Source: Methanosphaera sp. (GTDB lineage Archaea > Methanobacteriota > Methanobacteria > Methanobacteriales > Methanobacteriaceae). Taken from it: 45,281 bases of DNA. The notes under the pieces were generated by a model that worked only from the letters and a program-made list of their open reading frames with translations, had not been told where the DNA came from and ran no database searches. This document shows, piece after piece, positions 2,941 through 21,576 of the stretch (the stretch's first letter is position 1; every line of letters starts with the position of its first letter). The stretch lies in assembly GCA_017431845.1 (NCBI GenBank), contig JAFRKG010000021.1, forward strand, positions 1-45,281, written 5' to 3'. The translations under genes and the position numbers were made by a program.

Positions 2941-3894
2941 ATGATAAATACATTGGACCAAGATAAAATGTTACTTGATTTACTAAAAAATAAAAATTCA
3001 GAAAAAAATCATGAATATGATCAATCCATCTACAAAATCAAACTAAATTCCCCTGAATTCAGGATATCCTATGAAATAACAAAAATACAAAAAGGATACT
3101 ACCCACAAGTAGGAATAACAGCTAGACAAGGGATATTAATATTATACAAGTATCCTGATAATAACACATGGCATAACCTGGATAGTTACAGCAGACGAAA
3201 GAACATTAACATTAACATGAAAACATATAACATTGACAAACATGTAAAAGACAATGAAACCTATGAACTAATGATAATAAGTCCAATACTCAGTCAACTA
3301 AAAACATTAACAATAGAAGTACCAGAGGACAAAACAGTTCAACTAGACACAACGATATCAGATAAAAAAATAGTGGTAGCAGGGGGAATACACTCCTATG
3401 GAATAGGATGCACAACAGTAGGACTAAAATTCTCAAACATTTTGTCACGAAACATGAATTTATCCATAATGGACTTAACATATAACAATAGGACAAGCTA
3501 CCTTGAAAACATAAACAATTACTATGAAGAAAATCCATTAGCCTCAGATGCAAATGTTGGAATACTGGAATTAGACTATGCCTTACAAGACGATGAAATA
3601 GTAAATGAATACCTTAAAAATGTAGTAAATCATATGTTGAGACAATGTGACCATTTAATATGCTGGTACTGCCTACCAAAACAGAAATTATACAAAAGAG
3701 CATTAATATTCGACAATTTAATGGAAGAGATTACAGAAAAGAAAATAACAATTCTTGACCTTTCATACATATATGATGAAGACCACGAAGACATGTGCAC
3801 TGCCAGTATGAACTTTATTAATGATGCAGCAAACGTATTAATATACAAAAAGCTTAAAGAGACAATAATGGAGGTAACAAAATGGAATATCTGA
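2941..3894 (+). CDS. SGNH/GDSL-hydrolase-like protein lacking the catalytic serine (probable pseudo-enzyme)
   Basis: 317 residues. The N-terminal half (about 1-135) is beta-rich. From about 140 the sequence lines up with the next gene's SGNH domain: VAGGIHSYGIGCTTVGLKFS aligns with IFYGNSVTQGAAASRSGNTF, and ILSRNMNLSIMDLTYNN with IISRKLNNEIINLSSSS. At the block I serine position (GNS in the neighbour) this protein has GGI, so the nucleophile is missing, and the C-terminal DxxH motif (DSAH next door) is replaced by CTASMNF. It is therefore likely inactive and may act as a partner or scaffold of the active neighbour. The gene's last 13 bases overlap the start of that neighbour. There is no clear ribosome site before the ATG, so a leaderless transcript is possible. 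The homology is by eye and moderately sure. Confidence 0.65.
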   Translation: MINTLDQDKMLLDLLKNKNSEKNHEYDQSIYKIKLNSPEFRISYEITKIQKGYYPQVGITARQGILILYKYPDNNTWHNLDSYSRRKNININMKTYNIDKHVKDNETYELMIISPILSQLKTLTIEVPEDKTVQLDTTISDKKIVVAGGIHSYGIGCTTVGLKFSNILSRNMNLSIMDLTYNNRTSYLENINNYYEENPLASDANVGILELDYALQDDEIVNEYLKNVVNHMLRQCDHLICWYCLPKQKLYKRALIFDNLMEEITEKKITILDLSYIYDEDHEDMCTASMNFINDAANVLIYKKLKETIMEVTKWNI

Positions 3895-4961: not shown

Positions 4962-6014
4962 ATGTCTAACATTGAAATATCTATAATTATACCAGTATTT
5001 AATTCTGAAAAATACTTGGATGAGTGTTTAAAATCAGTAATTCATCAGACATTCACTAGATATGAAATAATATGTGTAAATGATGGATCAACTGATAGCT
5101 CACTTATTATTCTTGAAAAATACTTGCAAAAATATGATAATCTAAAAGTACACAATAAAGAAAATGAAGGCCCTGGTTCTGCAAGAAATTATGGACTTAA
5201 GCATGCAAAAGGAAAATATGTGCTATTTCTTGATTCTGATGACTGGCTAGAAGAAAACACTTTGGAAACTTTATATGAAACAGCAATGGAAAACGATTCC
5301 GAACTTGTAATGTTTAATGCTTTGGAACATTATAAAAACAACAAAACCAAGAACAGGACGTATCATGTTATAAAAGAAGATAATAATTTTAGAAAATTCT
5401 CTTTTGATTATAACAATAACATCAATCTAGTGATGAATGGATATCATATTGTATGCACAAAATTACATAAACTTGATTTTATAAAAAATTATTCGTTATC
5501 TTTTGCTGAAAAGGATCAATTCGAGGATGTTTTATTTCATATTAAAAGCATGATATATGCTAAAAGAATATCATACACTCCAGAGGTATTATATCATTAT
5601 CGAAGAACCGGGGATAATAGTAGGCAAAACAATGCATTAAATGGTAAAAAAAGTTTACAATTCTTTGAAATTTTTGAGGAAGTTAAAGAATTCTTATATG
5701 ATGAATGTCTCTATGAAAAGTTTAAAATAAATTATTATAAATTTGTTATTAATGAAACAAGAAATATTGAACAAAATATTGATAATAAATTTTATGATGA
5801 CTTTTTCATAAAAGCAAAAAAAACATTCAATAAATTATGTATAAGTACAAATGATATAATGAGATTACCTTTGGATTATCAGTACTTTTATAAAGCACTT
5901 ATTGAATCAGATAACTCTTTAATGTTTAGAAAGAATCTGAAAAAAAGTAATAAGAAGTTATTAATAACAAAAAAAGTATTAAAAGTTAAGCAATGGATTA
6001 AACAAATCATTTAG
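4962..6014 (+). CDS. Family 2 glycosyltransferase (GT-A fold)
   Basis: 350 residues. The N-terminal ~110 residues hold the complete GT2 signature: SIIIPVFNSEKYLDECLKS, CVNDGSTD for nucleotide binding, GPGSARNYGL, and LFLDSDDW as the metal-binding DxD. The C-terminal 240 residues are less conserved, with NGYHIVCTKLHKLDF and HYRRTGDNSRQNN, as in many capsule and teichoic-acid glycosyltransferases. It ends in a lysine-rich tail (KKSNKKLLITKK) that could lie against the membrane. It is 18 bases behind the SGNH esterase gene and probably in the same operon, although no strong ribosome site is seen. It converges with the next minus-strand gene, the two stop codons overlapping by four bases. The sugar transferred cannot be predicted. 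Confidence 0.88.
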   Translation: MSNIEISIIIPVFNSEKYLDECLKSVIHQTFTRYEIICVNDGSTDSSLIILEKYLQKYDNLKVHNKENEGPGSARNYGLKHAKGKYVLFLDSDDWLEENTLETLYETAMENDSELVMFNALEHYKNNKTKNRTYHVIKEDNNFRKFSFDYNNNINLVMNGYHIVCTKLHKLDFIKNYSLSFAEKDQFEDVLFHIKSMIYAKRISYTPEVLYHYRRTGDNSRQNNALNGKKSLQFFEIFEEVKEFLYDECLYEKFKINYYKFVINETRNIEQNIDNKFYDDFFIKAKKTFNKLCISTNDIMRLPLDYQYFYKALIESDNSLMFRKNLKKSNKKLLITKKVLKVKQWIKQII

Positions 6015-8638
6015 TTATCATCATTTAATATCCATTCATAAACTCTTTTTGAATTGTTTCTGTCATTGTATTTGAAGAAATCATTTATTCGTTCCACATA
6101 TTTATCTTCTATCATACAATCATTTTCAATGTATTTCTTAATTAATTTGATTAATTCATGTTCATCATGGACAATTTTTCCAAAACCCATATTTTCATAG
6201 TTAAAATAGCCCTCTTTGTAATGATAATCATTATTCTGATAATATATTACAGGCTTTTTGATATAAGCAAAATCAAAGAATACTGAAGAATAATCAGTTA
6301 TCAGTAATGATGATTTTTTGAACAATTCCTGGTATGATTCGCTTTCTGAAATTTCAATGTAATCAGGTATGTTTAGTAAATGAATATATTTAACTATTTC
6401 AGGGTGTGGCTTAAAAACAAACTTATACTTGTTTTCTTTTAAGATCTTATGTAATTTCTTATTATTTAGGAAAGAATTTAATCTTTTATAGTAATCTGAT
6501 GTTACAAATAGTGTTTCATTTTCTAATTCTATACGCCATGTTGGAACAAATAGTATTTGTTTTATTCTTTCATCTTCAAGTTTATCAAATCTTGGAAATC
6601 CTAATGTTTGAATAATATTCTTATCATAATTGTATCCTGGTTCTAGGAACGAATCATGTTCATGGTCTGATACAGTGACTATTAATGACAAGTTTTTATC
6701 ATATTTTTTAATGAATTCGGATATGTTGTCTTTGGTTACTCCATGTTGTAGGAAGTATTTTTTTGCTGTTTTAAGTCCGTTGTATAATGATGGTGTTTTA
6801 TAGTAATAAGGGTTTATAAAGTTTTCATTAACATATGATGATATTATTTTTTCTGATAATAGGTAGTAGATTTTATGTTTGTATGATCCAAATTTAAGAA
6901 TATTTTTACTAATCTTTTTCATTTCATTAAAATCATTACTTGATTCATTTAAAACATAGTATTTAATAATACCATCATTTTTATTAATTGAATATTCAAA
7001 TAAATGTCTTGCATTGTCATCTGAAAATTCTGGTCTGTCATGATATAGCCAAATCCTCCTATTTCTATAAAAAGGGTAAATTATGAAATAAAGAAAACTA
7101 ATCAAAACAGCTTCTTTATATCCTGTCGGCTTATCTTTAACTATCTGCTTAATATTACTAACCTCAAAACGTAGCATTGACAAATAAGAATAAGGTAATA
7201 CTACAAACTTATTAAATTTAAACAAAACAATCAAATCATCAGCAACAAAAAATGCACTATGAGTAGACAAACCACAATTATCCCTAAAACTCACATGAGG
7301 AATCATTGAATAATCACATGAACTATCATTATATTCAATTTTAAAATAAAATTCATCATCTACAGAAACTCTGGATTTTACATCAAAACTGAAACGATAC
7401 TTCCATTCAATATCAAGAAAAGTTAAAGTTCCACGATTCACATCATTATAAAAAATAGGAACACTATCAATACAAACAGTTGAATCACCACTCTTCCTAA
7501 CAAGAACAATCCTCAGGTTCTCACTTCTAAAGGAAGACTCAATGTTACCAGAAAAATATATAAAACCATTACTTAACTCAACAATATCCAACCATAATCG
7601 GATAGAATTAAAATCGTCAACAACATAACCATCAGAAACAACAGTTAACTCAGAATCTTCAACTAATTCTAATTGCCCCTTATTTTTCAAATAAACAAAA
7701 AACGATTCAATATTGGAATTAACAAATTCATTACCTATAATACAATCCAAATCAATAAAATCTAAAACCTGGTTTAGTTTCTTCCAAAAGTCAACCTTCT
7801 TCTGTGCATCTTCAAAAATGTCTAACTTATTAACTGATAACATCCACTGAAGATCATAAACAAACAAATATTGAATAAACTTAGGAATAAAACCTTCATA
7901 TTTCAAACAAATATCACATAATTTAAGATAAAAACGTTCTAGACGATTAGTATAATATTCTTTCTTTCTTTGCATCAAATCAACAGTACTGCTATTATCA
8001 CTTCTTTGACGATAATAATATTCAACACCATTAACTAAACCATAAACCTTTTTATCCAATAAAATCTCATTAATAACAAGTGCATCTTCAAGATTAGCTA
8101 ATTTGGTGTCAAAAGAATAATTTTTCATAACATTTAACTTAATAAAGCTAGATGAAGCAGATAACTGGGGATTATTTGGTTCAACATTCAAGTCAACTAT
8201 TCTAGTTTCCTTAAACTTGGAATTTAAACGATGTGGCTTATTAACACGTTCAAATAATATCATAGGAATAGCAACAATATCAACTTCATCAAAGTGTTTT
8301 TCAAAAAAAGTATAAACAACATCTAACGTGTTTTTGGAAAAATAATCATCACTATCTAAAAAATTAACATATTTGCCAGTAGCATACTTTAAACCATAAT
8401 TACGTGCACTGGATTGTCCACCATTACTCTTAGTTAATGCAACAACATTCTCAGGATACTTCTCATAAAATTCTGATATAATTTCAGCTGATTTATCCGT
8501 ACTTCCATCATCAACCAGAATCAATTGAACATTATCTCTAAATCCAATGCTCTGATTAATAACACTATTAATAGTTTCTCTAAGATACTTGTCCACATTA
8601 TAGACTGCAATGATGATAGAAAACTTAAATGAACTCAT
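6011..8638 (-). CDS. GT2 glycosyltransferase fused to CDP-glycerol/ribitol glycerophosphotransferase (TagF/TarL-like)
   Basis: 875 residues. An intact GT2 module lies at 1-240: SIIIAVYNVDKYLRETINS, LVDDGSTD (about 41), GQSSARNYGL and NFLDSDDY (about 93). A beta-rich middle region follows (about 320-500). The C-terminal third matches the Glyphos_transf family (PF04464): FLQHGV (about 629), GFPRFDKL, FVPTWR, FKPHPE (about 739) and LITDYSSVFFDFAY (about 778) with KPVIYYQ. The family transfers polyol phosphates from CDP-glycerol or CDP-ribitol to build teichoic acid. Fusion to a GT2 suggests a polymer of alternating sugar and polyol phosphate. AGGAG lies ten bases before the ATG. It is 30 bases downstream of the minus-strand gene ending at 8669, so the two form an operon. 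Coding-strand composition shifts near 7000, from GT-rich in the 5' half to A-rich in the 3' part. Confidence 0.88.
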   Translation of the reverse strand: MSSFKFSIIIAVYNVDKYLRETINSVINQSIGFRDNVQLILVDDGSTDKSAEIISEFYEKYPENVVALTKSNGGQSSARNYGLKYATGKYVNFLDSDDYFSKNTLDVVYTFFEKHFDEVDIVAIPMILFERVNKPHRLNSKFKETRIVDLNVEPNNPQLSASSSFIKLNVMKNYSFDTKLANLEDALVINEILLDKKVYGLVNGVEYYYRQRSDNSSTVDLMQRKKEYYTNRLERFYLKLCDICLKYEGFIPKFIQYLFVYDLQWMLSVNKLDIFEDAQKKVDFWKKLNQVLDFIDLDCIIGNEFVNSNIESFFVYLKNKGQLELVEDSELTVVSDGYVVDDFNSIRLWLDIVELSNGFIYFSGNIESSFRSENLRIVLVRKSGDSTVCIDSVPIFYNDVNRGTLTFLDIEWKYRFSFDVKSRVSVDDEFYFKIEYNDSSCDYSMIPHVSFRDNCGLSTHSAFFVADDLIVLFKFNKFVVLPYSYLSMLRFEVSNIKQIVKDKPTGYKEAVLISFLYFIIYPFYRNRRIWLYHDRPEFSDDNARHLFEYSINKNDGIIKYYVLNESSNDFNEMKKISKNILKFGSYKHKIYYLLSEKIISSYVNENFINPYYYKTPSLYNGLKTAKKYFLQHGVTKDNISEFIKKYDKNLSLIVTVSDHEHDSFLEPGYNYDKNIIQTLGFPRFDKLEDERIKQILFVPTWRIELENETLFVTSDYYKRLNSFLNNKKLHKILKENKYKFVFKPHPEIVKYIHLLNIPDYIEISESESYQELFKKSSLLITDYSSVFFDFAYIKKPVIYYQNNDYHYKEGYFNYENMGFGKIVHDEHELIKLIKKYIENDCMIEDKYVERINDFFKYNDRNNSKRVYEWILNDDN

Positions 8639-8668: not shown

Positions 8669-10132
8669 CTATTTTTCTAAGTCATCATGTATAATCTTTA
8701 ATATTTCAGGATATTTCTTAATAACATCCCGTATATGCTTATCATTAATACCCTTTCTATTAGTTAACCATAAAGTTGTTTCATTCAATAAATTTAATTC
8801 ACGGGCAGGATTAATATAAATCAAGTCATGATAACAATCATAAGCAATTTTAAATTTGCTTCCATTAAGCACAGCCATAGCCCAAAACCAAATATCATCA
8901 CCATACTTACATAATTTTAAAAACTTATCCTCATCAAAAACATCCTTATACAATGCATGTGGTGGATATAATATGCCCCCAGCACCAGTCATGAAAGTTA
9001 AGAAAGATGCTTCCCGATTATCTGTAATTAATTCCCATGAATTGTATTCTTTAAATTTTTCTTCGGACTCTAAAATCATCTTACGTGCCCTATGGACAAT
9101 AATATTGTTTGGAAAATCAATGTAAGTTGAATACAATTTAAATAGCCAATCTTTTGGATAGAATATATCATCATCAGCTGTAACAATAATCTCCTCGGAG
9201 AATTCTTTAAGTACAGGTATTAATTTTTTATAAGAATAAATATTATGATACCATCTAATATCCAATCCATAACGTGTTAAATTTAACAAGTCCTTAGGAA
9301 TATCTTTCTCACGGTTTGGAAATTCTTCTTTAGCTAACCATAAAATCAGTTTATCTGGCTTGAACTCCTGATTAAGTAAGGAATAAACAGCATATTTCGC
9401 ATCATTTATCCTTAAAGGATAAGATGTTAAAGACACAACCACCTTTTTATCACGTGGCTTATTATTTAAACCATAACTGCTAAGAGTACTAAGTTTGTCT
9501 TTAAAATATAATCTGTTAATAGCTTTTGGCTGATAAAAAGAGGGATTAAGCTTAACCATACCTTCATCCATACCTTTTAAAACAAGGTATACTAAAGGAT
9601 TAACCTCAGATTTTCTTGCATTTACATTATACTCCTTGTAAAACGATGCATCAAAATATGAACTAGGATTTTTTCCTTCATAATATCCATGATACAAGTA
9701 ATGAAAAATAGGTGGAACACTTAAATTATAATTATATTCCTTCTCATAATATTTTTTATCAAAAAAATTCAGTAATAAAATCTTCTTAAAACCATTGAAA
9801 TAAACTTCATTAGAGAATAAATCAATAATAATCTCTTTATATAAATTATTTTCAAATTCTAATTTTTTAAGACCATAACTAAAATGAGCACTATCCTGCT
9901 TGGCCTTATCATTAATATATTTAAGCTTATAATCTTCAGATAATTCCAAATCTAATAAAGGGTCTTCTTCAATTTTAATAATACTATGAGTCTTAAATGT
10001 CTCATGATCCATGTTTTTAGTGTAAATATTTGTTAATAATTTCTTAAATTCCTTGTTTGAATAAATTAACTTCTGCAATAAGTGAACTTTCGAAAAAACC
10101 TTATTTTTATCATATAAATTACTAAAAAACAT
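8669..10132 (-). CDS. Glycosyltransferase, GT-A-like with TADDD motif
   Basis: 487 residues. Residues about 225-480 resemble a family of putative polysaccharide glycosyltransferases with a VSLTSYPLRINDAKY start, a SLLNQEFKPDKLILWLA segment, SYKKLIPVLKEF, and a TADDDIFYP motif that would serve as the acidic metal-binding site. The N-terminal part (about 120-215) has two copies of a short pattern, FFDKKYYEKEYN...HYLYHGYYEGKNP and YFDASFYKEYNV...YLVLKGMDEGM, often seen as an accessory repeat in surface-glycan glycosyltransferases. No signal peptide or membrane segment is visible. AAGGAT lies six bases before the ATG. It is the first gene of a two-gene minus-strand operon with the GT2-TagF-like gene, and is divergent from the giant gene across 198 bases. 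The fold is fairly sure; the substrate is unknown. Confidence 0.75.
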   Translation of the reverse strand: MFFSNLYDKNKVFSKVHLLQKLIYSNKEFKKLLTNIYTKNMDHETFKTHSIIKIEEDPLLDLELSEDYKLKYINDKAKQDSAHFSYGLKKLEFENNLYKEIIIDLFSNEVYFNGFKKILLLNFFDKKYYEKEYNYNLSVPPIFHYLYHGYYEGKNPSSYFDASFYKEYNVNARKSEVNPLVYLVLKGMDEGMVKLNPSFYQPKAINRLYFKDKLSTLSSYGLNNKPRDKKVVVSLTSYPLRINDAKYAVYSLLNQEFKPDKLILWLAKEEFPNREKDIPKDLLNLTRYGLDIRWYHNIYSYKKLIPVLKEFSEEIIVTADDDIFYPKDWLFKLYSTYIDFPNNIIVHRARKMILESEEKFKEYNSWELITDNREASFLTFMTGAGGILYPPHALYKDVFDEDKFLKLCKYGDDIWFWAMAVLNGSKFKIAYDCYHDLIYINPARELNLLNETTLWLTNRKGINDKHIRDVIKKYPEILKIIHDDLEK

Positions 10133-10330: not shown

Positions 10331-13300
10331 TTGAACAATACATGTAACTTTACAATAATAATATCATACAAAAACACAGAAATGCACATAGAAGAAACAA
10401 TATTATCAATAACCGAACAAAAACTATCATTCAAAGCAAACGTTCAATTAATATTATTAAACAACAATTCAAAGGACAACTCAACACTAATAGCCAGACA
10501 CTTCCAAAGAACATACCCAAAAAACATAAGCATAATCAACGAGTCAAACATAAACAAATCCAAAAACATTGCACTAAAACAAGCTAAAGGAAAATACATA
10601 GCATTCATAAACAGTAACGACTACTTATCCAAAGAAGTATTAGCAAATGTGTTAACACAATTTAAACAAAACCCCGAATGTAACATAGTTAAAGTACCCT
10701 TCAACGAAATAGGTGTAAATCAGGAAATAAAAGAACAACTCGGACAAACAATAATAAACCTAGAAAAAACAAACAACATCCCCACAACATTAGAATCTTT
10801 ATTTATAAAAAAAGAACTACTTCAAAACCAACAATATGACGAAACACAAACAGACTCCGAAAACCTACAATTAATAAACAATATTTTCACCACTAACAAA
10901 ACAATCAACATCGCAGAAGGAACATATAACAAAAGATTAACAAATCAAACAATTAAAACAAAACAACAATATGAAAACAAGATAACAACATATAAACAAC
11001 TACTAAAAACAGAAAACAACAATCCAAATTATGTTCAAAACCTAATTTTAAAAGATTTAAACAAAACAATAACAGTACCACACATACATCTATTCAAAAC
11101 AACAGAAGAAAAAGAAAGCTATGTCAACTCAATACAGGAAATACTACAAGAAATAGACACACAAAAAATATTAAAACAAAAATTCACAAAAAACATAAAA
11201 AAACTATTAATACACTTAAAAGAAAACAAAGAACAAAAAACCACACAAAATAACTTACAATTATATGAAATATTTAACAATTACTACCTAGAAAGAAATG
11301 AAATAAAATTCACAATAATACTAGAAACAATAGAAACACCAAAATACTTGGAAGAAAGCATAAAATCAATAATAAACCAGACAATACCCTTCAAAGAAAA
11401 CATCCAAATAATAATAATCAACAATAACACCAACAATGAAACAACAAGTATATCAGAACACTACCAGAAAATATACCCTCAAAACATAAGAATAATAACA
11501 GAAGATTCACAAAATGCTAAAAACAATGCAATACAACAAGCAAAAGGAACATACATAAGTTTCCTGAACGAATCAGACTACTACTCATGGAATGTAATGG
11601 AAAATGTATACAACGCATTTAAGGAAAATCCACAAACAAACATAATAAAAATAGGATATAAAGAAGTAGGAATCAAAGAACAAAATACTGGACAAGAAAA
11701 TACAATCATAAACATCAATAACATAATAAACAAAGATTACTCATACAAAACATTATTCATAAAAAAAGACACACTCACACAATACAATTTCAATCAAGAC
11801 AAACATGACACAGAAAATCTGTACATACTGGCAGATCTAATACAAAACAATCCAGAAATATTTCTAACTAAAGGATGGTATAATCATAGAACAATCAACA
11901 CATTAAAAACAGAACACCACTTCCAAAAAATAAAAGTATGCCAAGAATTACTAAACAAGACCAATAATAATTACACACAAAACCTAGTAATATCAGTCAT
12001 AGATGAATTATTCACAACAGAATATATAGAAAATTTAGATGATAACAACGAGAAAAAAGATATCATTACTACGATACAAGAAATAACAAAGCATTTAACT
12101 AAAGAACAAATAATTAATCACCAATACACTAACAACAAGACAAAAAGATTATTAATATACCTAAAAGAACAAATATCAGAAAATACAACAAATCTAGAAG
12201 TTTATAATATAATAAACACCATATTTCTCAAGGAAAACGAGATAGACTATTATCAATCAGGATCATTCAATTTCTCAATAATAATACAATACTCAAACTC
12301 AGAAAGGCTAATAGAAAAAACAATAACCTCCATAACTGAAGACCAAACACTACCATTCAAACAAAACACTCAACTAATATTTATCAATAACCAAAGCACA
12401 GACAATTCAACAACAATAATTAAACACTACCAAAACCAATACCCCGAAAACATATCCATAATCAATGAATCAAACATAAATAAAGCCAAAAACAGAGCAC
12501 TCAAATATGCAACAGGTAAATATATTGCAATAATCAACGGAACAGATTACATATCACCACATACACTAGAAAACGTACTTGAAATGTTCCCAGAAAACAA
12601 TGAAATAAACATAATCAAAATGCCAGTAAAACATATAGGACTACACAATATCAAAGACCCCATACTACAAGAAGATTCAATAGTAGACCTAAGGGAACAT
12701 CCAAGCAAAACTCAAACATACGAATCCCTATTTATAAAAAACAAAATAATTAAACAAGAACAATTCGATGAAACACAAACAGATATAGATAACATAGAAT
12801 TACTAAACAAAATCATACTAGAAAACCCAGTATTAGGAATAGCAAAAGGACAATACTATCAAAGAGTAACATATGATAATCTAAGAATACAAAACCAAAA
12901 TCAAAGCACAAAAGAACATTATCAAAACAAAATAAAAACCTACCAAAAAATAATAAAAGAATCCACCAATAACGAAAATAAAATCAATGATTACACACAA
13001 TACATGATATCCGATGATTTAGAACAACTAATCAGCAAAGCACATTTACATCTTTTCGAAACAGAACAAGAAAAAACAGAATACCTTAACAATCTAGAAA
13101 ATATAATACAACAATTAGATGAAAACAAGATAATTAACCAAAAACACACATATACAAATATTAAACGTTTACAAAAATCATATAACAAGAAAAAAAACTA
13201 TGAAGAAGATAATTTAACAATAAACAACATCACAGAAAAAGATAACAACATATACATTAAAGGAAACTACACATCAATACGAAACAACAAACACATACCA

Positions 13301-16273
13301 ATCAACATAATACTAAACGAAAAAACAGAAATTCCATGCAACATCATCAAAACAGAAAACACAAACTATGATCCAGTAACACTAGCCGATGAAATAGAAT
13401 TCACAGACCACTTCGAAACAACAATACCTAAAAACAATACAACAAAATTCGAATTTCAAATAACAGAAAACAACACACAATACACCCCACAAATAAAACT
13501 ACAAGAAAATAAAAAAACAAAAAACTCAGTAAACATAAACAAAGAACTAATAGCATACAACAATACCAGAGACATAATACTTCAGGAAACAAAAAAAGAC
13601 AAACATTACACATTCTCAATAATAATAGCAGTATACAACACAGAAAGATTCATAGAAGAATCAATAAATTCAATCATCAACCAGACACTAAGTTTCAAAG
13701 AAAACACCGAAATAATCATAGTAGATGATGGAAGCACAGACAATTCAATAAACATAATAAAAGGATACAAAGAACAATACCCTGAAAACATAACAATCAT
13801 AGAAAAAACACATAGTGGACAAGCAAGTGCAAGAGACCTGGGACTAAAAATAGCAACAGGACAATATGTTAACTTCCTAGACAGTGATGACTACCTTGAA
13901 AAAGACACACTAGAAAAAGTAAAAGAGTATATTGACACAATAAACAATAAAACAGATGTTATAACAATCCCAATGAATTATGTAGATCGACTGGAAAAAG
14001 AACACCCACTAAATTACAAATATGATCAAACAAGAATAATAAACCTCGAAGAAGAATATGAAAACCCACAGTTGTCCCTATCCTCAGCTTTCATAAACAC
14101 AGAAACTATACAAAAATATGAATTTGACACATCATTAATAAGCTCAGAAGATACATTAATACTAAACAAAGTTCTACTCGAAAAAAGGACAATGGGCGTA
14201 CTAAATAACACACATTATAATTACAGGTTACGATTTAGTGAAGACAACCTCACAGAAAGTCTAACAACAGATAAACAGTATTACACACACAGATTAGAAC
14301 ACTTCCACAAACACCTATTAAACTACTGCCTGGAAGAATATGATGAAATACCATTATTCATACAATACATGATAGCAACAGACCTAAACAAATTGTTCAG
14401 CATACGAAAATTAGATGTATTTGAAGACAAAGACGAAATAGACGAGTTCTGGGAATACATTAAAAGTAATGATGGAAAATATGACATATTAACACACATA
14501 TCCGATGAATGCATAAAAAATAATAATAACATTAAACAACCACTAAAATCCCTGATGATGTACCATAAAAACAGAGAATACAAAGTGTCCGTATCAAAAA
14601 ACGGTATAGTAAAATTATCAACAAAGAATCATACAATAGACACACTAAATAATCATGGATTATGGTTTGACATAATAGAAGTCCGCTTTAACAAATTAAA
14701 CCTATCCGGACACTTCGTATCCAACTTCTACCCAGAAACAATCACACTAAAAATTATCAAAACAAACGAAAACGGACGAGAACAAGCATATCCATGCGAA
14801 TACTTCGAATATGCTACAGAAGACCGCAGTCACCTAGAATCATTATCATTCCCATGGAGGTATGATTACAACTTCAATGTACAAGTACCATTAGATAATG
14901 TTAGCATAGCAGACTTCAGATTTGAATTAACATATAAGGAAAACGGAAAAACCATAACAATAACGCCAACAATAGGATTCAGAGTACCATCCGGATTAAC
15001 AGAATTCAACAAATACTTCGTACAAGAATCCAGAATAGTATTCTACCAAGACAAAAAAATATACGTCTATCCATACTCCTATAAAATGATGTTAAAACGA
15101 GAATTCAGAACATTACAACTAATAACACAAGACAAACAAGACGGATACAAGAAAATAATATTCTACAGAATACTCTACATGCTATTATACCCATTCATGA
15201 AAAACAAGAGAATATGGTTTATAAATGATAGATTAGACCGTGCAGACGAAAACGGAATACATTTATTCAAATATGCATACCAACAAAATGATGGAATAAA
15301 AAAATATTACATACTAGACAAGCACTGTGATGACTACAAAAAACTTAAAAAAAGATATGGTGGAAGCATACTTGCACATAACTCATTCAAACATAAACTA
15401 TTATACTTCTTCACAGAAAAAAGAATAGCCTCATTTTTAAATGAAGCATTCTTCAACCCATTCTGGATTGATGGAAACTATGATATAAGAAAAATCTACT
15501 GTAACCTAGTAACATCGCCATGGTATTTCCTTCAACATGGAATAATCTACAGAGACTTAACTAGTCACATCAAACGATACAAATACAACCTAGCACTAGT
15601 AGTAACATCAACAGAACGTGAAAGACAATCTTTCTTCGACCTAAAATATGGATTCCCTGAAGAAGTTGTACAAATACTAGGACTACCAAGATACGATAAC
15701 CTCATCAAAGACAATGAAGTCAAAAAACAGATACTGTTCACGCCAACATGGCGACTACAACTAGAAAAAGACGAATCATTATTCTTAAATTCGGATTATT
15801 ATCATATGTTAAACAGTTTCTTAAGTAATGATGAACTCTTCAAATTATTGGATGAGTATGGTTATAAGTTTATATTTAAACCTCATCCTCAGTTAATTAA
15901 ACATTTAGATTCGTTTGAGATGAATGATGCAGTTATTGTATCTACGGAGGAGTCTTATCAGGAGTTAATTAGGGATTCTGCGTTGATGATTAGTGATGTT
16001 TCTTCTGTGATTTCGGATTTTGCTTATCTTAAGAAGCCTATTATTTATTATCAGAAAAATGATGATCATCATTTTGAACCGTTCTTTGATTATGTGAGTG
16101 AAGGATTTGGTGATGTGTTTAAGACTGAAGAAGATGTAATTGATAAGGTTCGGTTTTATCTTGAAAATGGTTGTGTGATGGAAGATAAATATAAAGAGAG
16201 GGTTTCAAACTTTTTCAAGTATAATGATAAGAATAATTGTAAACGTGTGTATGAGTGGATTTTAAAGCATTAA
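10331..16273 (+). CDS. Giant multimodular protein: three degenerate GT2 modules, one intact GT2, and a TagF/TarL-like domain
   Basis: 1980 residues, TTG start with GAGGGGAA upstream. GT2-like modules begin near residues 6, 325, 650 and 1093. The first three have lost the acidic motifs. The DDGS position reads LNNNSKDNS (about 43), NNNTNNETT (about 364) and NNQSTDNS (about 685), an exact 321-residue period. The DSDD position reads NSNDY (94), NESDY (413) and NGTDY (736). A partial beta-domain copy (about 960-1060) precedes module 4, which has VDDGSTD (about 1131) and LDSDDY (about 1184). A second beta-domain precedes the glycerophosphotransferase module: FLQHGI (about 1735), FTPTWR, FKPHPQ (about 1849) and ISDVSSVISDFAYLKKP. 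The reading frame is open throughout. It probably polymerises or extends a sugar/polyol-phosphate chain, with the inactive modules binding acceptor or nucleotide. From about 15780 the codon use switches from A/C-rich to G/T-rich. Confidence 0.87.
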   Translation: MNNTCNFTIIISYKNTEMHIEETILSITEQKLSFKANVQLILLNNNSKDNSTLIARHFQRTYPKNISIINESNINKSKNIALKQAKGKYIAFINSNDYLSKEVLANVLTQFKQNPECNIVKVPFNEIGVNQEIKEQLGQTIINLEKTNNIPTTLESLFIKKELLQNQQYDETQTDSENLQLINNIFTTNKTINIAEGTYNKRLTNQTIKTKQQYENKITTYKQLLKTENNNPNYVQNLILKDLNKTITVPHIHLFKTTEEKESYVNSIQEILQEIDTQKILKQKFTKNIKKLLIHLKENKEQKTTQNNLQLYEIFNNYYLERNEIKFTIILETIETPKYLEESIKSIINQTIPFKENIQIIIINNNTNNETTSISEHYQKIYPQNIRIITEDSQNAKNNAIQQAKGTYISFLNESDYYSWNVMENVYNAFKENPQTNIIKIGYKEVGIKEQNTGQENTIININNIINKDYSYKTLFIKKDTLTQYNFNQDKHDTENLYILADLIQNNPEIFLTKGWYNHRTINTLKTEHHFQKIKVCQELLNKTNNNYTQNLVISVIDELFTTEYIENLDDNNEKKDIITTIQEITKHLTKEQIINHQYTNNKTKRLLIYLKEQISENTTNLEVYNIINTIFLKENEIDYYQSGSFNFSIIIQYSNSERLIEKTITSITEDQTLPFKQNTQLIFINNQSTDNSTTIIKHYQNQYPENISIINESNINKAKNRALKYATGKYIAIINGTDYISPHTLENVLEMFPENNEINIIKMPVKHIGLHNIKDPILQEDSIVDLREHPSKTQTYESLFIKNKIIKQEQFDETQTDIDNIELLNKIILENPVLGIAKGQYYQRVTYDNLRIQNQNQSTKEHYQNKIKTYQKIIKESTNNENKINDYTQYMISDDLEQLISKAHLHLFETEQEKTEYLNNLENIIQQLDENKIINQKHTYTNIKRLQKSYNKKKNYEEDNLTINNITEKDNNIYIKGNYTSIRNNKHIPINIILNEKTEIPCNIIKTENTNYDPVTLADEIEFTDHFETTIPKNNTTKFEFQITENNTQYTPQIKLQENKKTKNSVNINKELIAYNNTRDIILQETKKDKHYTFSIIIAVYNTERFIEESINSIINQTLSFKENTEIIIVDDGSTDNSINIIKGYKEQYPENITIIEKTHSGQASARDLGLKIATGQYVNFLDSDDYLEKDTLEKVKEYIDTINNKTDVITIPMNYVDRLEKEHPLNYKYDQTRIINLEEEYENPQLSLSSAFINTETIQKYEFDTSLISSEDTLILNKVLLEKRTMGVLNNTHYNYRLRFSEDNLTESLTTDKQYYTHRLEHFHKHLLNYCLEEYDEIPLFIQYMIATDLNKLFSIRKLDVFEDKDEIDEFWEYIKSNDGKYDILTHISDECIKNNNNIKQPLKSLMMYHKNREYKVSVSKNGIVKLSTKNHTIDTLNNHGLWFDIIEVRFNKLNLSGHFVSNFYPETITLKIIKTNENGREQAYPCEYFEYATEDRSHLESLSFPWRYDYNFNVQVPLDNVSIADFRFELTYKENGKTITITPTIGFRVPSGLTEFNKYFVQESRIVFYQDKKIYVYPYSYKMMLKREFRTLQLITQDKQDGYKKIIFYRILYMLLYPFMKNKRIWFINDRLDRADENGIHLFKYAYQQNDGIKKYYILDKHCDDYKKLKKRYGGSILAHNSFKHKLLYFFTEKRIASFLNEAFFNPFWIDGNYDIRKIYCNLVTSPWYFLQHGIIYRDLTSHIKRYKYNLALVVTSTERERQSFFDLKYGFPEEVVQILGLPRYDNLIKDNEVKKQILFTPTWRLQLEKDESLFLNSDYYHMLNSFLSNDELFKLLDEYGYKFIFKPHPQLIKHLDSFEMNDAVIVSTEESYQELIRDSALMISDVSSVISDFAYLKKPIIYYQKNDDHHFEPFFDYVSEGFGDVFKTEEDVIDKVRFYLENGCVMEDKYKERVSNFFKYNDKNNCKRVYEWILKH

Positions 16274-16628
16274 GTTGATTATTATGAGTGATAAAAAAGG
16301 TTTTATGTTTTCTGTGATATTGACTGTGTCTGATAATCCTGGTTATTTGGAGCAATCTATTAGTTCTGTGTTGGATCAGACATTGGATTTTAAGGAGAAT
16401 GTTCAGATAATTTTTATAGATTATGGGGGATGTGTTGAGTCAACAAAGCTTATAAAGCGTGTTGGTCGTGTGTATCCTGATAATGTTGTTATTTTGTCAA
16501 AGGATTATCTGGGTCAGCCTTATGCTGAAAATAATGTTTACAAAGTACCTGCAGGGGAATATGTTACATTCCTTGAAGGAAATGATTACTTCTCAATAAA
16601 CACATTCGAACAAGTAAAAAACTTCTTA
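15781..16628 (+). repeat. Direct repeat, copy 1: 3' end of giant gene plus junction plus 5' end of next gene
   Basis: This segment is nearly identical by eye to 18434-19281, offset about 2653 bases, and spans a stop codon, the intergene bases and the next start codon. It marks a tandem duplication or repeated gene conversion and is an obvious substrate for unequal crossing-over. Confidence 0.8.
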
Positions 16629-18926
16629 AACAAGCTCAACAACAAAACAAACATAATAACAATTCCCATAGAAAACATTAACAATAAAAAACAAGAATTA
16701 AACTACAAATTCGAACAAACAAGAATAATAAATCTGGAAGAAGAGGCTAATAATCCACAACTACACATAAAATCATGTTTTATCAAAAAATCAGCATTAC
16801 ACAACTACAAATACAATAGAAAAACATTATTTGAAGAAGAAACCATACTAATAAACCAATTACTCTTAGATCTTCCACGAATAGGCATAATAAACAACGC
16901 CAAATACAATATACGAGAAAAATTCAACATAAACACATCACAAAACAAACCTACACAAGAAAAACAAATAATAAAAAAAATTAACACATACAAAAAATTA
17001 ATAACAACATCTAAACCAAAACTAGAAAAAATACCTAAATTCATAGGATACACAATAGCCTATGACATACAAGACATACTTAAACTACCTGATTTAGGTT
17101 TTCTAGATAAAGAAGAAAAAAATAGTTTGTTTGAAGAAATTAGGAGTATTATTGGTATTCTTGATGATGATATGATTTATGATAATGAGAATATTGATTA
17201 TGCTTTGAGGGGTTTCTTTATTTATCTTAAAAAGGGTGTATATTCTATTGTTGGTGAGGATGATAATGTTGTGATGTGGTCTGGTGATTATTATATTGAT
17301 GATCTTAAGAAACATAGGATATGGTTGGATATTGTTGATATTAAGGATGATTGCTTGGTAATCTCTGGGGTATATACTACAAACTTTGATAATGATTCGC
17401 TTAGAATAAATCTGATTAAAGAAGATGCAGGAAATAATAGGGAAACTTTTTCATGTGATTATTTTACTTATCCTCAAAGGGATAGAAGTAATGTTGAATA
17501 TTTGGGCATTCCATGGAAGTTTGTTTATAATTTCGAAGTGTCATTAAAATTAAAAGATGTAATTCAGGATAAATTCTCATTTGAGGTTTTATTTGAAGAT
17601 AAAGATATTACTGCAAAGTACACTCCTCGGATAGAGTTCAGGATATCTTCCTATTTTTCTAGTGTATCAATTTATGCAGTTATTGGGGAGTATATTTTAT
17701 TTAAGGATAGTTCTTCTATTTCGGTTATTCCTTATTCTTTTAGGAAACTTTTTAACTTTGAAGTTAAGAATATTTTTAAAATCATTAAAAGTTCTGAAAA
17801 AGGTAAGGTGGGAGCTGCATTTATGCATTTCCTATATCTTTTATTGTATAAGTTAATGGATAATAAGAAGATTTGGTTATTGAATGATAGGCTTGATATT
17901 GTTGATGATAATGCAAAACATTTATTTGAGTATGCACTTAAACAAGATGATAGAATAACAAAGTATCTTATCGTAGATAAAGATTCTGAAGATTATAAAA
18001 AACTTAAAAAGAATTATAAGAACATCATAACATATGGATCATTCAAACATAGAATATTATACCTATTCTCTGAGAAAAGAATATCATCTCTCCTAAATGA
18101 AAAATTTTTCAATCCCTTCTATAATGACGAAGAAGATAAACGTAAACTCTACTGTAATTTAGTAACAGCACCAAGATACTTCATACAACACGGAGTAATC
18201 TACAGAAACTTAACAGAACACATAAAACGATATAATCATAATCTAAGATTAATAGTTACCTCAGCAGAACGTGAAAGACAATCATTCTTTGACCTAAACT
18301 ATAGATTCCCTGAGGAAGTTGTTCAAATACTGGGACTTCCACGTTTTGACAACCTTATAAAAGATAACAAAATAAAAAAACAAATATTATTCACGCCAAC
18401 ATGGAGATTACAACTAGACAAAAATGAATCATTGTTCTTAAATTCGGATTATTATCATATGTTGAATAGTTTTTTAAGTAATGGTGAGCTTTTTAAATTG
18501 TTGGATGAGTATGGTTATAAGTTTATATTTAAGCCTCATCCTCAGTTGATTAAGCATTTGGATTCTTTTGAGATGAATGATGCTGTTGTTGTTTCTACGG
18601 AGGAGTCTTATCAGGAGTTGATTCGTGATTCTGCGTTGATGATTAGTGATGTTTCTTCTGTGATTTCGGATTTTGCTTATCTTAAGAAGCCTATTATTTA
18701 TTATCAGAAGAATGAGGATCATCATTTTGAGCCGTTTTTTGATTATGTGAGTGAAGGTTTTGGTGATGTGCTTAAGAGTGAGGATGATGTTATTGGTAAG
18801 TTGAGGTTTTATCTTGAAAATGGTTGTGTGATGGAGGATAAGTATAAAGAGAGGGTTTCAAACTTTTTCAAGTATAATGATAAGAATAATTGTAAACGTG
18901 TGTATGAGTGGATTTTAAAGCATTAA
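16284..18926 (+). CDS. GT2-like (degenerate) module fused to TagF/TarL-like glycerophosphotransferase
   Basis: 880 residues from the ATG at 16284; an in-frame TTG at 16275, two bases after the upstream stop, is possible but less likely. The GT2-like module (1-230) keeps the fold (FSVILTVSDNPGYLEQSISS) but has FIDYGGC where DDGS is expected and LEGNDYF where DSDD is expected, so catalysis is doubtful. A beta-rich domain (about 325-500, HRIWLDIVDIKDD, YTPRIEFR) precedes the glycerophosphotransferase module, which is intact: FIQHGV, LGLPRFDNL, FTPTWR, FKPHPQ, ISDVSSVISDFAY, KPIIYYQ. The polyol-phosphate transferase activity is therefore likely retained. It follows the giant gene directly and shares its 3' ~500 bases with it and much of its length with the next gene. 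It is probably co-transcribed with both. Confidence 0.85.
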   Translation: MSDKKGFMFSVILTVSDNPGYLEQSISSVLDQTLDFKENVQIIFIDYGGCVESTKLIKRVGRVYPDNVVILSKDYLGQPYAENNVYKVPAGEYVTFLEGNDYFSINTFEQVKNFLNKLNNKTNIITIPIENINNKKQELNYKFEQTRIINLEEEANNPQLHIKSCFIKKSALHNYKYNRKTLFEEETILINQLLLDLPRIGIINNAKYNIREKFNINTSQNKPTQEKQIIKKINTYKKLITTSKPKLEKIPKFIGYTIAYDIQDILKLPDLGFLDKEEKNSLFEEIRSIIGILDDDMIYDNENIDYALRGFFIYLKKGVYSIVGEDDNVVMWSGDYYIDDLKKHRIWLDIVDIKDDCLVISGVYTTNFDNDSLRINLIKEDAGNNRETFSCDYFTYPQRDRSNVEYLGIPWKFVYNFEVSLKLKDVIQDKFSFEVLFEDKDITAKYTPRIEFRISSYFSSVSIYAVIGEYILFKDSSSISVIPYSFRKLFNFEVKNIFKIIKSSEKGKVGAAFMHFLYLLLYKLMDNKKIWLLNDRLDIVDDNAKHLFEYALKQDDRITKYLIVDKDSEDYKKLKKNYKNIITYGSFKHRILYLFSEKRISSLLNEKFFNPFYNDEEDKRKLYCNLVTAPRYFIQHGVIYRNLTEHIKRYNHNLRLIVTSAERERQSFFDLNYRFPEEVVQILGLPRFDNLIKDNKIKKQILFTPTWRLQLDKNESLFLNSDYYHMLNSFLSNGELFKLLDEYGYKFIFKPHPQLIKHLDSFEMNDAVVVSTEESYQELIRDSALMISDVSSVISDFAYLKKPIIYYQKNEDHHFEPFFDYVSEGFGDVLKSEDDVIGKLRFYLENGCVMEDKYKERVSNFFKYNDKNNCKRVYEWILKH
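17062..18190 (+). repeat. Intragenic direct repeat, copy 1 (mosaic)
   Basis: Nearly identical by eye to 19712-20840, apart from a short diverged patch near 17565-17630 and another near 17830-17870. The matching and non-matching blocks have sharp edges, as left by gene conversion between the two tandem paralogues. Confidence 0.7.
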
Positions 18927-19281
18927 GTTGATTATTATGAGTGATAAAAAAGGTTTTATGTTTTCTGTGGTATTGGTTGTGTCTGATAATCCTGGTTATT
19001 TGGAGCAATCGATTAATTCTGTGTTGGATCAGTCATTGGATTTTAAGGAGAATGTTCAGATAATTTTTATAGATTATGGGGGATGTGTTGAGTCAACAGA
19101 GCTTATAAGGCGTGTTGGTCGTGTGTATCCTGATAATGTTGTTGTTTTGTCAAAGGATTATCTTGGTCAGCCTTATGCTGAAAATAATGTTTATAAAGTT
19201 CCTGGTGGAGAATATGTTACATTCCTTGACGGTGATGATTACTTCTCAAAAAACACATTCGAACAAGTAAAAAACTTCTTT
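18434..19281 (+). repeat. Direct repeat, copy 2: gene junction
   Basis: Partner of 15781-16628. Both copies contain the gene-end segment with KPHPQ and ISDVSSV, the stop codon, the spacer and the start of the next GT2-like module. Sequence beyond the right edge (19282 on) differs from copy 1. Confidence 0.8.
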
Positions 19282-21576
19282 GATAAACATTCTGAAGAGA
19301 GTAATATTGTATCAATTCCAGTAATTAATGGAAATGTAGAAGATGGATTAAACTACAAATTTGAACAAACAAGAATAATAAATCTGGAAGAAGAGGCTAA
19401 TAATCCACAACTACACCTAAAATCATGTTTTATCAAAAAATCAGCACTACACGACTACAAATTCAATAGAAAAACATTATTTGAAGAAGAAACCATACTA
19501 ATAAACCAATTACTCTTAGAGCTTCCACGAATAGGTGTGATAAAAAATGTTAAATATTATATTAGACAAATATTCGACCCTAAACTCTTTAAAAACAAAA
19601 CAATCCAAGAAAAAAAATATATTCAAAGAATAATTTTTATTAAAAAATTATTCTCCACATCAATCACAAAAAATAGTATTGTACCTGATTTTATCAAATA
19701 TACAATCACATATTACATACAAGACATACTTAAAATACCTGATTTAGGTTTTCTAGATAAAGAAGAAAAAAATAGTTTGTTTGAAGAAATTAGGAGTATC
19801 ATTGGTATTCTTGATGATGATATGATTTATGATAATGAGAATATTGATTATGCTTTGAGGGGTTTCTTTATTTATCTTAAAAAGGGTGTATATTCTATTG
19901 TTGGTGAGGATGATAATGTTGTGATGCGTTCTGGTGATTATTATATTGATGATCTTAAGAAACATAGGATATGGTTGGATATAGTTGATATTAAGAATGA
20001 TCACTTGGTAATCTCTGGGGTATATACTACAAACTTTGATAATGATTCACTTAGAATAAATCTGATTAAAGAAGATGCAGGAAATAATAGGGAAACTTTT
20101 TCATGCGATTATTTCACTTATCCTCAGAAGGATAGAAGCAATGTTGAATATTTGGGCATTCCATGGAAGTTTGTTTATAATTTCGAAGTGTCATTAAAAT
20201 TAAAAGATGTAATTCATAACAAATATACTTTCGAAGTAACATTTGAAGAAAATAATATTCAAATGGACTATACTCCTCGGATAGAGTTCAGGATATCCTC
20301 TTATTTTTCTAGTGTATCAATTTATGCGGTTATTGGGGAGTATATTTTATTTAAGGATAGTTCTTCTATTTCGGTTATTCCTTATTCTTTTAGGAAACTT
20401 TTTAACTTTGAAGTTAAGAATATTTTTAAAATTATTAAAAGTTCTGAAAAAGGTAAGGTGGGAGCTGCATTTATGCATTTGCTCTACCTTATATTATATC
20501 GGTATATGGATAATAAGAGGATTTGGTTATTGAATGATAGGCTTGATATTGTTGATGATAATGCAAAACATTTATTTGAGTATGCACTTAAACAAGATGA
20601 TGGAATAACTAAGTACCTTATCGTGGACAAAGATTCTGAAGATTATAAGGAACTTAAAAAGAATTATAAGAACATCATAACTTATGGATCATTCAAACAT
20701 AAAATATTATACCTATTCAGTGAAAAAAGAATATCTTCATTTTTGAATGAAAATTTTTTCAATACATTCTATAATGACGAAGAGGATAAACGTAATCTCT
20801 ACTGTAATTTAGTAACAGCACCAAGATATTTCCTCCAACATGGAGTAATATCCTGTGATTTAACAGAACAAATCAGACGATATGATCATAACTTATCTTT
20901 AATACTCACATCATCAGATCTTGAATGCCAATCATTCTTTGACTTGGACTATAATTTTCCGAGGCAATCTATTCAGGTATTAGGACTTCCAAGATATGAT
21001 AAATTAACAAATAAAGAAAAAAAGAAACAAATATTATTCATACCTTCCTGGAGATCATACCTTGATAATGATGGGGAACTTTTAAAACAATCTGATTATT
21101 ATAAGTCAATTGAAAGCTTAATTAATAATAATAAACTAGCAAAACTATTAGATTCTACTGGTTATCAATTAATATTTAAGCCACATCCTGAACTAATTAA
21201 ACATGCCGAAAAGTTCAACATAGGTAGTAATGTAAAGTTATCAATTAATAATTCATTCCAGGAATTATTTAACAATTCTTCATTATTAATCACAGATTTC
21301 TCATCAGTAATATTTGATTTTTCTTATCTAAAAAAGCCTGTAATATACTATCAACCAAATGATGATTACCATTACAAAGAAGGCTACTTTAACTATGAAG
21401 ATATGGGATTTGGTGAAGTAATTAGGAATGAAGAAGATTTAATACTGAAAATAAGGGAATACATCGAAAACAATTGTATTATGGAAGAAAAATACCAAGA
21501 AAGAGTAACTTCCTTTTTTAAGTATAATGATAAAAATAATTCGAAAAGAGTTTATGATTGGATTAAAAAAAATTAG
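18937..21576 (+). CDS. GT2-like module fused to TagF/TarL-like glycerophosphotransferase (tandem paralogue)
   Basis: 879 residues from the ATG at 18937 (in-frame TTG at 18928 less likely). The same layout as the gene before it, and mostly the same sequence to about residue 640. The GT2-like module again has DYGG for DDGS but keeps LDGDDYF, close to a normal DxD, so activity is less clearly lost than in its twin. The C-terminal quarter is a different version: FLQHGV, LGLPRYDKL, FIPSWR, FKPHPE, LITDFSSVIFDFSYLKKP and YHYKEGYFNYE. This is much closer to the minus-strand protein ending at 6011 than to its neighbour. It looks like a recombinant of two TagF-like lineages. It probably ends the operon starting at 10331, because 162 non-coding bases follow before the next gene. 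Confidence 0.85.
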   Translation: MSDKKGFMFSVVLVVSDNPGYLEQSINSVLDQSLDFKENVQIIFIDYGGCVESTELIRRVGRVYPDNVVVLSKDYLGQPYAENNVYKVPGGEYVTFLDGDDYFSKNTFEQVKNFFDKHSEESNIVSIPVINGNVEDGLNYKFEQTRIINLEEEANNPQLHLKSCFIKKSALHDYKFNRKTLFEEETILINQLLLELPRIGVIKNVKYYIRQIFDPKLFKNKTIQEKKYIQRIIFIKKLFSTSITKNSIVPDFIKYTITYYIQDILKIPDLGFLDKEEKNSLFEEIRSIIGILDDDMIYDNENIDYALRGFFIYLKKGVYSIVGEDDNVVMRSGDYYIDDLKKHRIWLDIVDIKNDHLVISGVYTTNFDNDSLRINLIKEDAGNNRETFSCDYFTYPQKDRSNVEYLGIPWKFVYNFEVSLKLKDVIHNKYTFEVTFEENNIQMDYTPRIEFRISSYFSSVSIYAVIGEYILFKDSSSISVIPYSFRKLFNFEVKNIFKIIKSSEKGKVGAAFMHLLYLILYRYMDNKRIWLLNDRLDIVDDNAKHLFEYALKQDDGITKYLIVDKDSEDYKELKKNYKNIITYGSFKHKILYLFSEKRISSFLNENFFNTFYNDEEDKRNLYCNLVTAPRYFLQHGVISCDLTEQIRRYDHNLSLILTSSDLECQSFFDLDYNFPRQSIQVLGLPRYDKLTNKEKKKQILFIPSWRSYLDNDGELLKQSDYYKSIESLINNNKLAKLLDSTGYQLIFKPHPELIKHAEKFNIGSNVKLSINNSFQELFNNSSLLITDFSSVIFDFSYLKKPVIYYQPNDDYHYKEGYFNYEDMGFGEVIRNEEDLILKIREYIENNCIMEEKYQERVTSFFKYNDKNNSKRVYDWIKKN
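19712..20840 (+). repeat. Intragenic direct repeat, copy 2 (mosaic)
   Basis: Partner of 17062-18190. Similarity drops soon after 20840, where the QHGV segment begins to follow a different TagF-like lineage. Confidence 0.7.

Follow-up and report, generated by a model that had tools for sequence, protein, structure and literature searches.

Why does a putative polymer synthase of a gut archaeon carry three GT2 modules without their catalytic acids in front of one that has kept them? The question is raised by a gene in Methanosphaera sp., found in the window, the whole stretch of 45,281 nucleotides that was analysed and that makes up a complete contig; the genome, of 2.48 Mb, is assembled in 203 contigs. 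The reading frame at 10331–16273 on the + strand is open over 1980 codons, as the first-pass annotation had stated, and begins with TTG shortly 3' of a purine-rich GAGGGG, while the reverse strand of the same interval, read in a single frame, contains abundant stops. Pfam places GT2 in four stretches of the protein and TagF (PF04464) once, at aa 1621–1979 (E = 1.4e-35); modules 1, 2 and 3 match the GT2 profile (PF00535) with E values of 2.6e-17, 1.0e-15 and 6.3e-18, all above the cut-off. In the survey of related proteins described below, a module is called dead when the second Asp of DDGS or both Asp of DxD are lost, a rule on sequence only in which gaps are scored as lost. The parts of the protein are as follows.

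10331–16273, + strand: the 1980-aa protein, four GT2 modules and TagF (Pfam; 97% identical ortholog)
10331–11305, + strand: module 1, aa 1–325, dead GT2 with NNNS / NSND / EN (motif alignment; AF2)
11306–12268, + strand: module 2, aa 326–646, dead GT2 with NNNT / NESD / EN, the least constrained (alignment, selection tests, AF2)
12269–13240, + strand: module 3, aa 647–970, dead GT2 with NNQS / NGTD / DN, under purifying selection (alignment, selection tests, AF2)
13241–13600, + strand: beta-rich domain 3' of module 3, aa 971–1090 (AF2 strands; alignment)
13601–14650, + strand: module 4, aa 1091–1440, GT2 with DDGS, DSDD and ED intact (Pfam; motifs)
14651–15130, + strand: linker between module 4 and TagF, aa 1441–1600 (aligned to the beta-rich domain that follows module 3)
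15131–16270, + strand: TagF (PF04464) domain, in which the HG and HP histidines at aa 1736 and 1852 are conserved (Pfam; alignment)

In a genome of 203 contigs, such a layout could be suspected of being an assembly or annotation artefact. Another genome of this species, assembled in 2 contigs, carries a 97% identical ortholog without stops, in which the 1980-aa layout and the motifs are unchanged; the gene is therefore no assembly fusion, and an artefact is hardly credible.

By their motifs, module 4 and TagF appear intact. The TagF-like domain appears to contain both catalytic-histidine motifs, with the HG and HP histidines invariant in 9/9 aligned sequences; on the strength of the motif match, we take these to be the counterparts of H444 and H584 of TagF. 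Judging from family membership and intact motifs, the TagF domain would transfer polyol phosphate from CDP-polyol and module 4 would transfer a sugar, and together they probably make a teichoic-acid-like surface polymer. The neighbourhood includes the following genes, among which the product of 2050–2763 could possibly supply the CDP-polyol donor.

452–2050, + strand: fusion of a nucleotidyltransferase and a choline-kinase-like domain (Pfam/NCBIfam)
2050–2763, + strand: IspD/TarI-like cytidylyltransferase (Pfam IspD above cut-off; NCBIfam IspD and TarI below their cut-offs)
2941–3894, + strand: 317-aa protein near the polymer genes, no Pfam/NCBIfam match
6011–8638, − strand: 875-aa GT2-TagF protein, GT2 motifs intact (Pfam; motifs)
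8669–10132, − strand: 487-aa protein between the 875-aa and 1980-aa genes, no Pfam/NCBIfam match
16275–18926, + strand: downstream paralog, 883 aa, degenerate GT2 (DYGG / EGND / EE) and TagF (Pfam; motifs)
18928–21576, + strand: second downstream paralog, 882 aa, degenerate GT2 (DYGG / DGDD / EE) and TagF (Pfam; motifs)

At the DDGS position, modules 1 to 4 read NNNS (aa 44), NNNT (aa 364), NNQS (aa 686) and DDGS (aa 1132), and at the DSDD position NSND (aa 94), NESD (aa 413), NGTD (aa 736) and DSDD (aa 1184). The absence of these acids from modules 1–3 and their retention in module 4 had been recognized in the first-pass annotation, whose letters hold throughout except in module 2, where NNTN is corrected to NNNT. 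The catalytic-base position reads EN, EN and DN in modules 1–3 and ED in module 4, and the loss of the base is an addition to that account. In the alignment, the SGQxxAR loop is altered and 2–3 residues shorter in modules 1, 2 and 3. Only the last Asp of DSDD is retained in the three, as it is in most other surveyed dead modules, and it therefore carries little information on catalysis. Inspected by eye, the same alignment reveals neither an acid at a shifted position, an outcome named earlier as one that would refute the observation, nor a common new replacement acid in modules 1–3. For TarS, passages of PMC5156392 describe D93 as binding the metal, D91 and D94 as acting via water, and D178 as the base; these roles were transferred to the modules through profile alignment. 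Judged by the second DDGS Asp, the DxD pair and the base Asp, modules 1–3 would be non-catalytic and module 4 catalytic.

Across 42 intact modules, 14 active-site columns are conserved, and of these modules 1, 2 and 3 retain 5, 4 and 4, compared with 41, 32 and 40 of 68 other conserved columns (Fisher P = 0.14, 0.25 and 0.045, respectively); the bias toward active-site loss is consistent, weak per module and nominally significant in module 3 only. Live modules also conserve HxLNxK columns, which are changed or gapped in modules 1–3, and a substrate surface may thus be lost as well. Asn stands at most of the lost acids, as had been noted in support of a possibly preserved geometry. Yet at seven non-catalytic columns that are mostly Asp in live modules, Asn occurs in at least one of modules 1–3 at four and in all three at two. 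Since the sequence of modules 1–3 is AT-rich and Asn-rich (GC 0.270 vs 0.316 from module 4 onward), mutation bias may account for some of the pattern, and the Asp-to-Asn changes are weaker evidence for kept geometry than they had seemed.

Structure prediction by AF2 of aa 647–1090, with 37 aligned sequences, gave a mean pLDDT of 82.7 and a pTM of 0.78; block-mean pLDDT is 92–98 in the first 120 residues of module 3 and mostly 69–93 in the remaining GT2 and helical part. For aa 1–970, the mean pLDDT is 71.7 and the pTM 0.42, on account of which the placement of one module relative to another was set aside. In this model, module 1 has block values of 77–95 over aa 1–120, and modules 1 and 3 mostly exceed 80 at their starts, while module 2 lies mostly at 55–80 and falls to 24–60 over aa 441–520. 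Foldseek against the PDB, using the module 3 model, returned TarS (5tz8) as the best match, followed by RmlT and TarP, all of them wall-teichoic-acid glycosyltransferases. The TarS match has an E value of 1.4e-19, a TM score of 0.51 by query length and an rmsd of 9.7 over a long multi-domain alignment; with TarS 1–349, the TM score is 0.64 by target length. Ranking of PDB entries by sequence profile puts GalT1 (5hea) and 3bcv first and TarS next. TarS and module 4 share the same DxDD and ED layout; TarS, RmlT and TarP are active GT2 enzymes, whereas modules 1–3 lack the acids. TarS and TarP are trimeric and transfer GlcNAc to polyribitol phosphate, and the likeness of module 3 to them is one of fold. 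The earlier proposal of a kept fold with lost chemistry is borne out by the model of module 3, and the models and alignments support the view that modules 1–3 retain a GT-A fold without nucleotide, metal and base chemistry.

The exact 321-residue period described earlier gives way to motif-to-motif spacings of 318–325 residues among modules 1–3 (320/322, 319/323 and 318/325). From module 3 to module 4 the spacing is 446–453 residues, longer because of the beta-rich domain after module 3, the sole copy retained among modules 1–3 according to the alignment and AF2. In a tree of 46 modules, modules 1–3 are monophyletic (support 100/100) and sister to one dead module (NNNS / NADD / QE) of Methanosphaera G008 (98/92), the next branch outward being a live module of G017 (99/93). 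A tree of 71 modules, built from selected loci with L085, L121 and matches scoring below 50 excluded (those of R. bromii excepted), concurs on both points (96/89 and 98/97). Extra N-terminal modules separate from TagF-adjacent ones in 14 of 19 cases in the smaller tree (97/96) and in 18 of 24 in the larger (support only 86/68), and in neither tree does a TagF-adjacent module fall inside the group of N-terminal modules. Modules 1–3 sit on long branches and have an unusual letter make-up, which calls for caution with both trees and makes the six changes between dead and live states in the 71-module tree a rough figure.

Modules 1–3 and the dead G008 module have in common Asn at both DDGS acids and at the first DSDD acid. 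Given these shared changes and the tree, catalysis was probably lost before the split from the G008 lineage and before the multiplication to three, with parallel loss as an alternative. The ancestor would have been a two-GT2 protein with a once-active N-terminal GT2 ahead of the TagF-adjacent one; the former would have lost catalysis and then, in the present species, been tripled, with the beta domain dropped between copies. The triple array is present in 2 of 20 genomes of the genus, both of one species, several of the others being incomplete genomes.

Between the two genomes of this species, omega (NG86) is 0.40 in module 1, 0.69 in module 2, 0.08–0.10 in module 3 and 0.15 in module 4, in a small comparison with 18, 26 and 8 changes in modules 1, 2 and 3, respectively. 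The corresponding P values against neutrality for modules 1–3 are 0.057, 0.27 and 0.0014, or 0.13, 0.42–0.43 and 0.003 when transition bias is taken into account, and pooling the three gives 0.002 and 0.015. Neutral evolution, which had been named beforehand as the outcome that would speak against a function, is rejected for module 3 and for the pooled set (P = 0.002–0.015) but not for module 1 (0.06–0.13) or module 2 (0.27–0.43). Recent purifying selection is thus clear in module 3 alone of the three, and this module combines fold, lost residues and selection in the manner of a maintained pseudoenzyme.

Over a longer span, differences between modules 1–3 amount to 0.62–0.67 at fourfold third positions (0.61–0.69 predicted by base use; 15–21 sites per pair) and 0.66–0.69 at twofold third positions (0.70 predicted; 59–81 sites). 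With silent sites apparently saturated, on few sites, the amino-acid identity of 34–49% among the copies points to long-term constraint on the amino acids, beyond the frame alone. The saturation also speaks against recent exchange among modules 1–3, and with it against their suggested role as donor sequence for recombination. Simulated free drift to the divergence seen here produced at least 12 stops per copy pair (three divergences, 60 runs each). The open frame as such was considered as evidence that modules 1–3 function and was dropped, since an upstream stop would silence module 4 and TagF, and the frame would be kept whatever the three modules do.

Related TagF proteins were surveyed in the window and in loci L062–L160, which were chosen around TagF genes of the genus with the best matches of one scan added; the scan of genome contigs covered 80 of 535 relatives. 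The sample is thus not a census and includes near-duplicate ORFs, and absence of GT2 means no match to the survey's own profile. Of 149 TagF ORFs, 59 have no GT2 match, 74 have one and 16 have two or more; in a sample centred on the genus, these 16 comprise 15 from Methanobacteriaceae (12 in Methanosphaera) and one from Streptomyces. The TagF-adjacent GT2 is intact in 16/16 multi-GT2 proteins, while the extra GT2 modules are dead in 13/27. With near-duplicates removed, the figures are 13/13 and 10/22 (Fisher P = 0.005), and when a weak extra match (score 26) at the start of a 2553-aa protein is omitted, 9/21 extras are dead (P = 0.006); the second GT2 of a 1372-aa G008 protein is scored intact in these counts despite a DDGS reading of NDCK. 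Module number does vary, as a check set in advance had asked, from 1 to about 5 GT2 per TagF protein in the genus. Dead GT2 modules are also found in single-GT2 TagF proteins, among them those of both directly downstream genes and of Ruminococcus bromii, so that loss of GT2 chemistry next to TagF reaches beyond the extra modules. A polyanion clamp might be expected to be basic, but a comparison of net charge showed no significant excess of basic character in dead over intact modules (14 vs 43, P = 0.14; 12 near-duplicate rows had been removed in advance and 2 partly intact rows were excluded), which lends a clamp no support. Two further loci deserve mention. The 2553-aa TagF protein of G008 (L068:4200–11861) contains four motif-intact GT2 modules in addition to the weak degenerate match at its start. 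L083 is a contig that bears the label uncultured Bacillales, yet its GT2-TagF module is almost the same as one of Methanosphaera G002 (branches 0 and 0.0058); the contig probably comes from a mislabelled or contaminated MAG.

The TagF end of the gene may have a history of its own. Between the orthologs, dS is 0.25 in TagF vs 0.01–0.05 elsewhere in the gene, and it is 0.06 and 0.10 in neighbouring genes. In G010, the TagF part and the ortholog of the downstream 883-aa gene share exact tracts of 202 and 146 bp, and in the window the longest such tracts between the two are 84 and 83 bp. These comparisons suggest that sequence passes between the TagF domain (15131–16270) and the neighbouring paralog at 16275–18926, gene conversion being the best reading. 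The G010 ortholog of the 882-aa gene (L062:16411–18864) has 817 aa and lacks the first part, a separate short match lying just upstream; it looks frame-broken near its start.

In chondroitin synthase, both GT2 domains are active. Two GT2 stretches per chain of its structure (2z86) match the module profile, and the record names no TagF. Staphylococcus epidermidis TagF (3l7i) has a GT2-like stretch N-terminal to TagF (chain residues 3–360), a single such domain with the aligned letters NDGS and DADD. The capsule polymerases of the Cps1B type (Litschko 2018, PMC5974469) likewise unite a GT-A and a TagF-like domain in one polypeptide and make a polymer of sugar and polyol phosphate; in the passages drawn on, they consist of GT-A and TagF with TPR in the majority, whereas the present protein has four GT2 modules, three of them dead, in an archaeal host, and Pfam, at an E-value limit of 0.01, detects no TPR family in it. 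The accessory (AC) domain of LH3/PLOD3, as passages of PMC6082870 describe it, has a GT fold, is possibly non-catalytic and adjoins an active GT domain; unlike modules 1–3, it is present in a single copy and belongs to an unrelated pathway. Processivity in such enzymes has been assigned to other kinds of domain: according to passages of PMC5156392, the CBM-like trimerization domain of TarS raises intrinsic processivity to an estimated 2400 from 133 without the domain, and the TPR domain of Cps3D/Cps7D is described, in the sections consulted, as required for processive elongation. Passages of PMC11666461 and PMC3445992 were drawn on as well. No description of tandem dead GT2 modules fused to TagF was found in the literature searched, a weak negative given that most subscription journals lie outside its coverage, nor was one found there of teichoic-acid-type polymers of gut archaea themselves.

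We favour, at about even confidence, a teichoic-acid-like synthase in which modules 1–3 are pseudo-glycosyltransferases, most likely forming a non-catalytic arm. By analogy, this arm would keep the acceptor chain or partner subunits close to both active sites, and could raise processivity or assemble a complex; such a clamp or acceptor scaffold is plausible from the analogy and from the resemblance in fold to glycosyltransferases of teichoic acids. Counting against this reading are modules 1 and 2, neither of which departs singly from neutrality, the net-charge result, the altered HxLNxK columns, an active-site bias that is nominally significant in module 3 only, the restriction of the triple array to one species, the low pTM of the joint model of modules 1–3, and the dead GT2 modules of single-GT2 TagF proteins. 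The chief rival, which has its best case in modules 1 and 2, is that the three are a passive relic in decay, persisting only as the upstream part of a protein whose module 4 and TagF are needed, which we consider unlikely on balance and still a serious contender. It accords with the behaviour of modules 1 and 2, neither of which singly differs from neutral, with the lower GC, the Asn-rich sequence and the low-confidence region in module 2, and with a frame that would be retained regardless, since a stop would silence the enzyme; it is at odds with the selection on module 3 and the pooled test, with the identity kept between copies despite silent-site saturation, with the high-confidence model of module 3, and with the existence of three copies, whose duplication probably followed the loss of catalysis.

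Two other readings grant the modules a more specific role. A retooled active site, with other chemistry or metal-free binding of nucleotide sugars, would suit a well-formed and constrained module 3, and metal-independent enzymes do exist in GT6 (PMC3961637); it is improbable given Asn at the base position in all three modules, a shortened SGQxxAR loop and, by eye, no common new acidic residue in the alignment. A ruler, in which the number of pseudo-modules sets polymer length, had been suggested before, and the near-periodic array and the differing GT2 number among related TagF proteins, 1 to about 5, are in its favour. With an inexact period and the same module number in both genomes of the species, it is more improbable still. 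Overall, the earlier observation of three dead modules before an intact GT2-TagF is partly confirmed, and its interpretation partly supported.

Returning to the non-catalytic arm, we offer tentatively a wider version: extra GT2 modules in Methanosphaera may repeatedly become polymer-holding units, and here an already-dead module would have been amplified to three as a processivity clamp, so that the genus would present a natural gradation, from live to dead modules, ahead of one intact GT2-TagF core. Known processivity parts of polymer synthases are TPR or CBM-like domains; if the proposal is true, an array of dead transferases would supply them from a new source. Related proteins differing in module count and state provide material with which the role of dead modules can be tested, and the locus illustrates the diversification of teichoic-acid-type enzymes in gut archaea.
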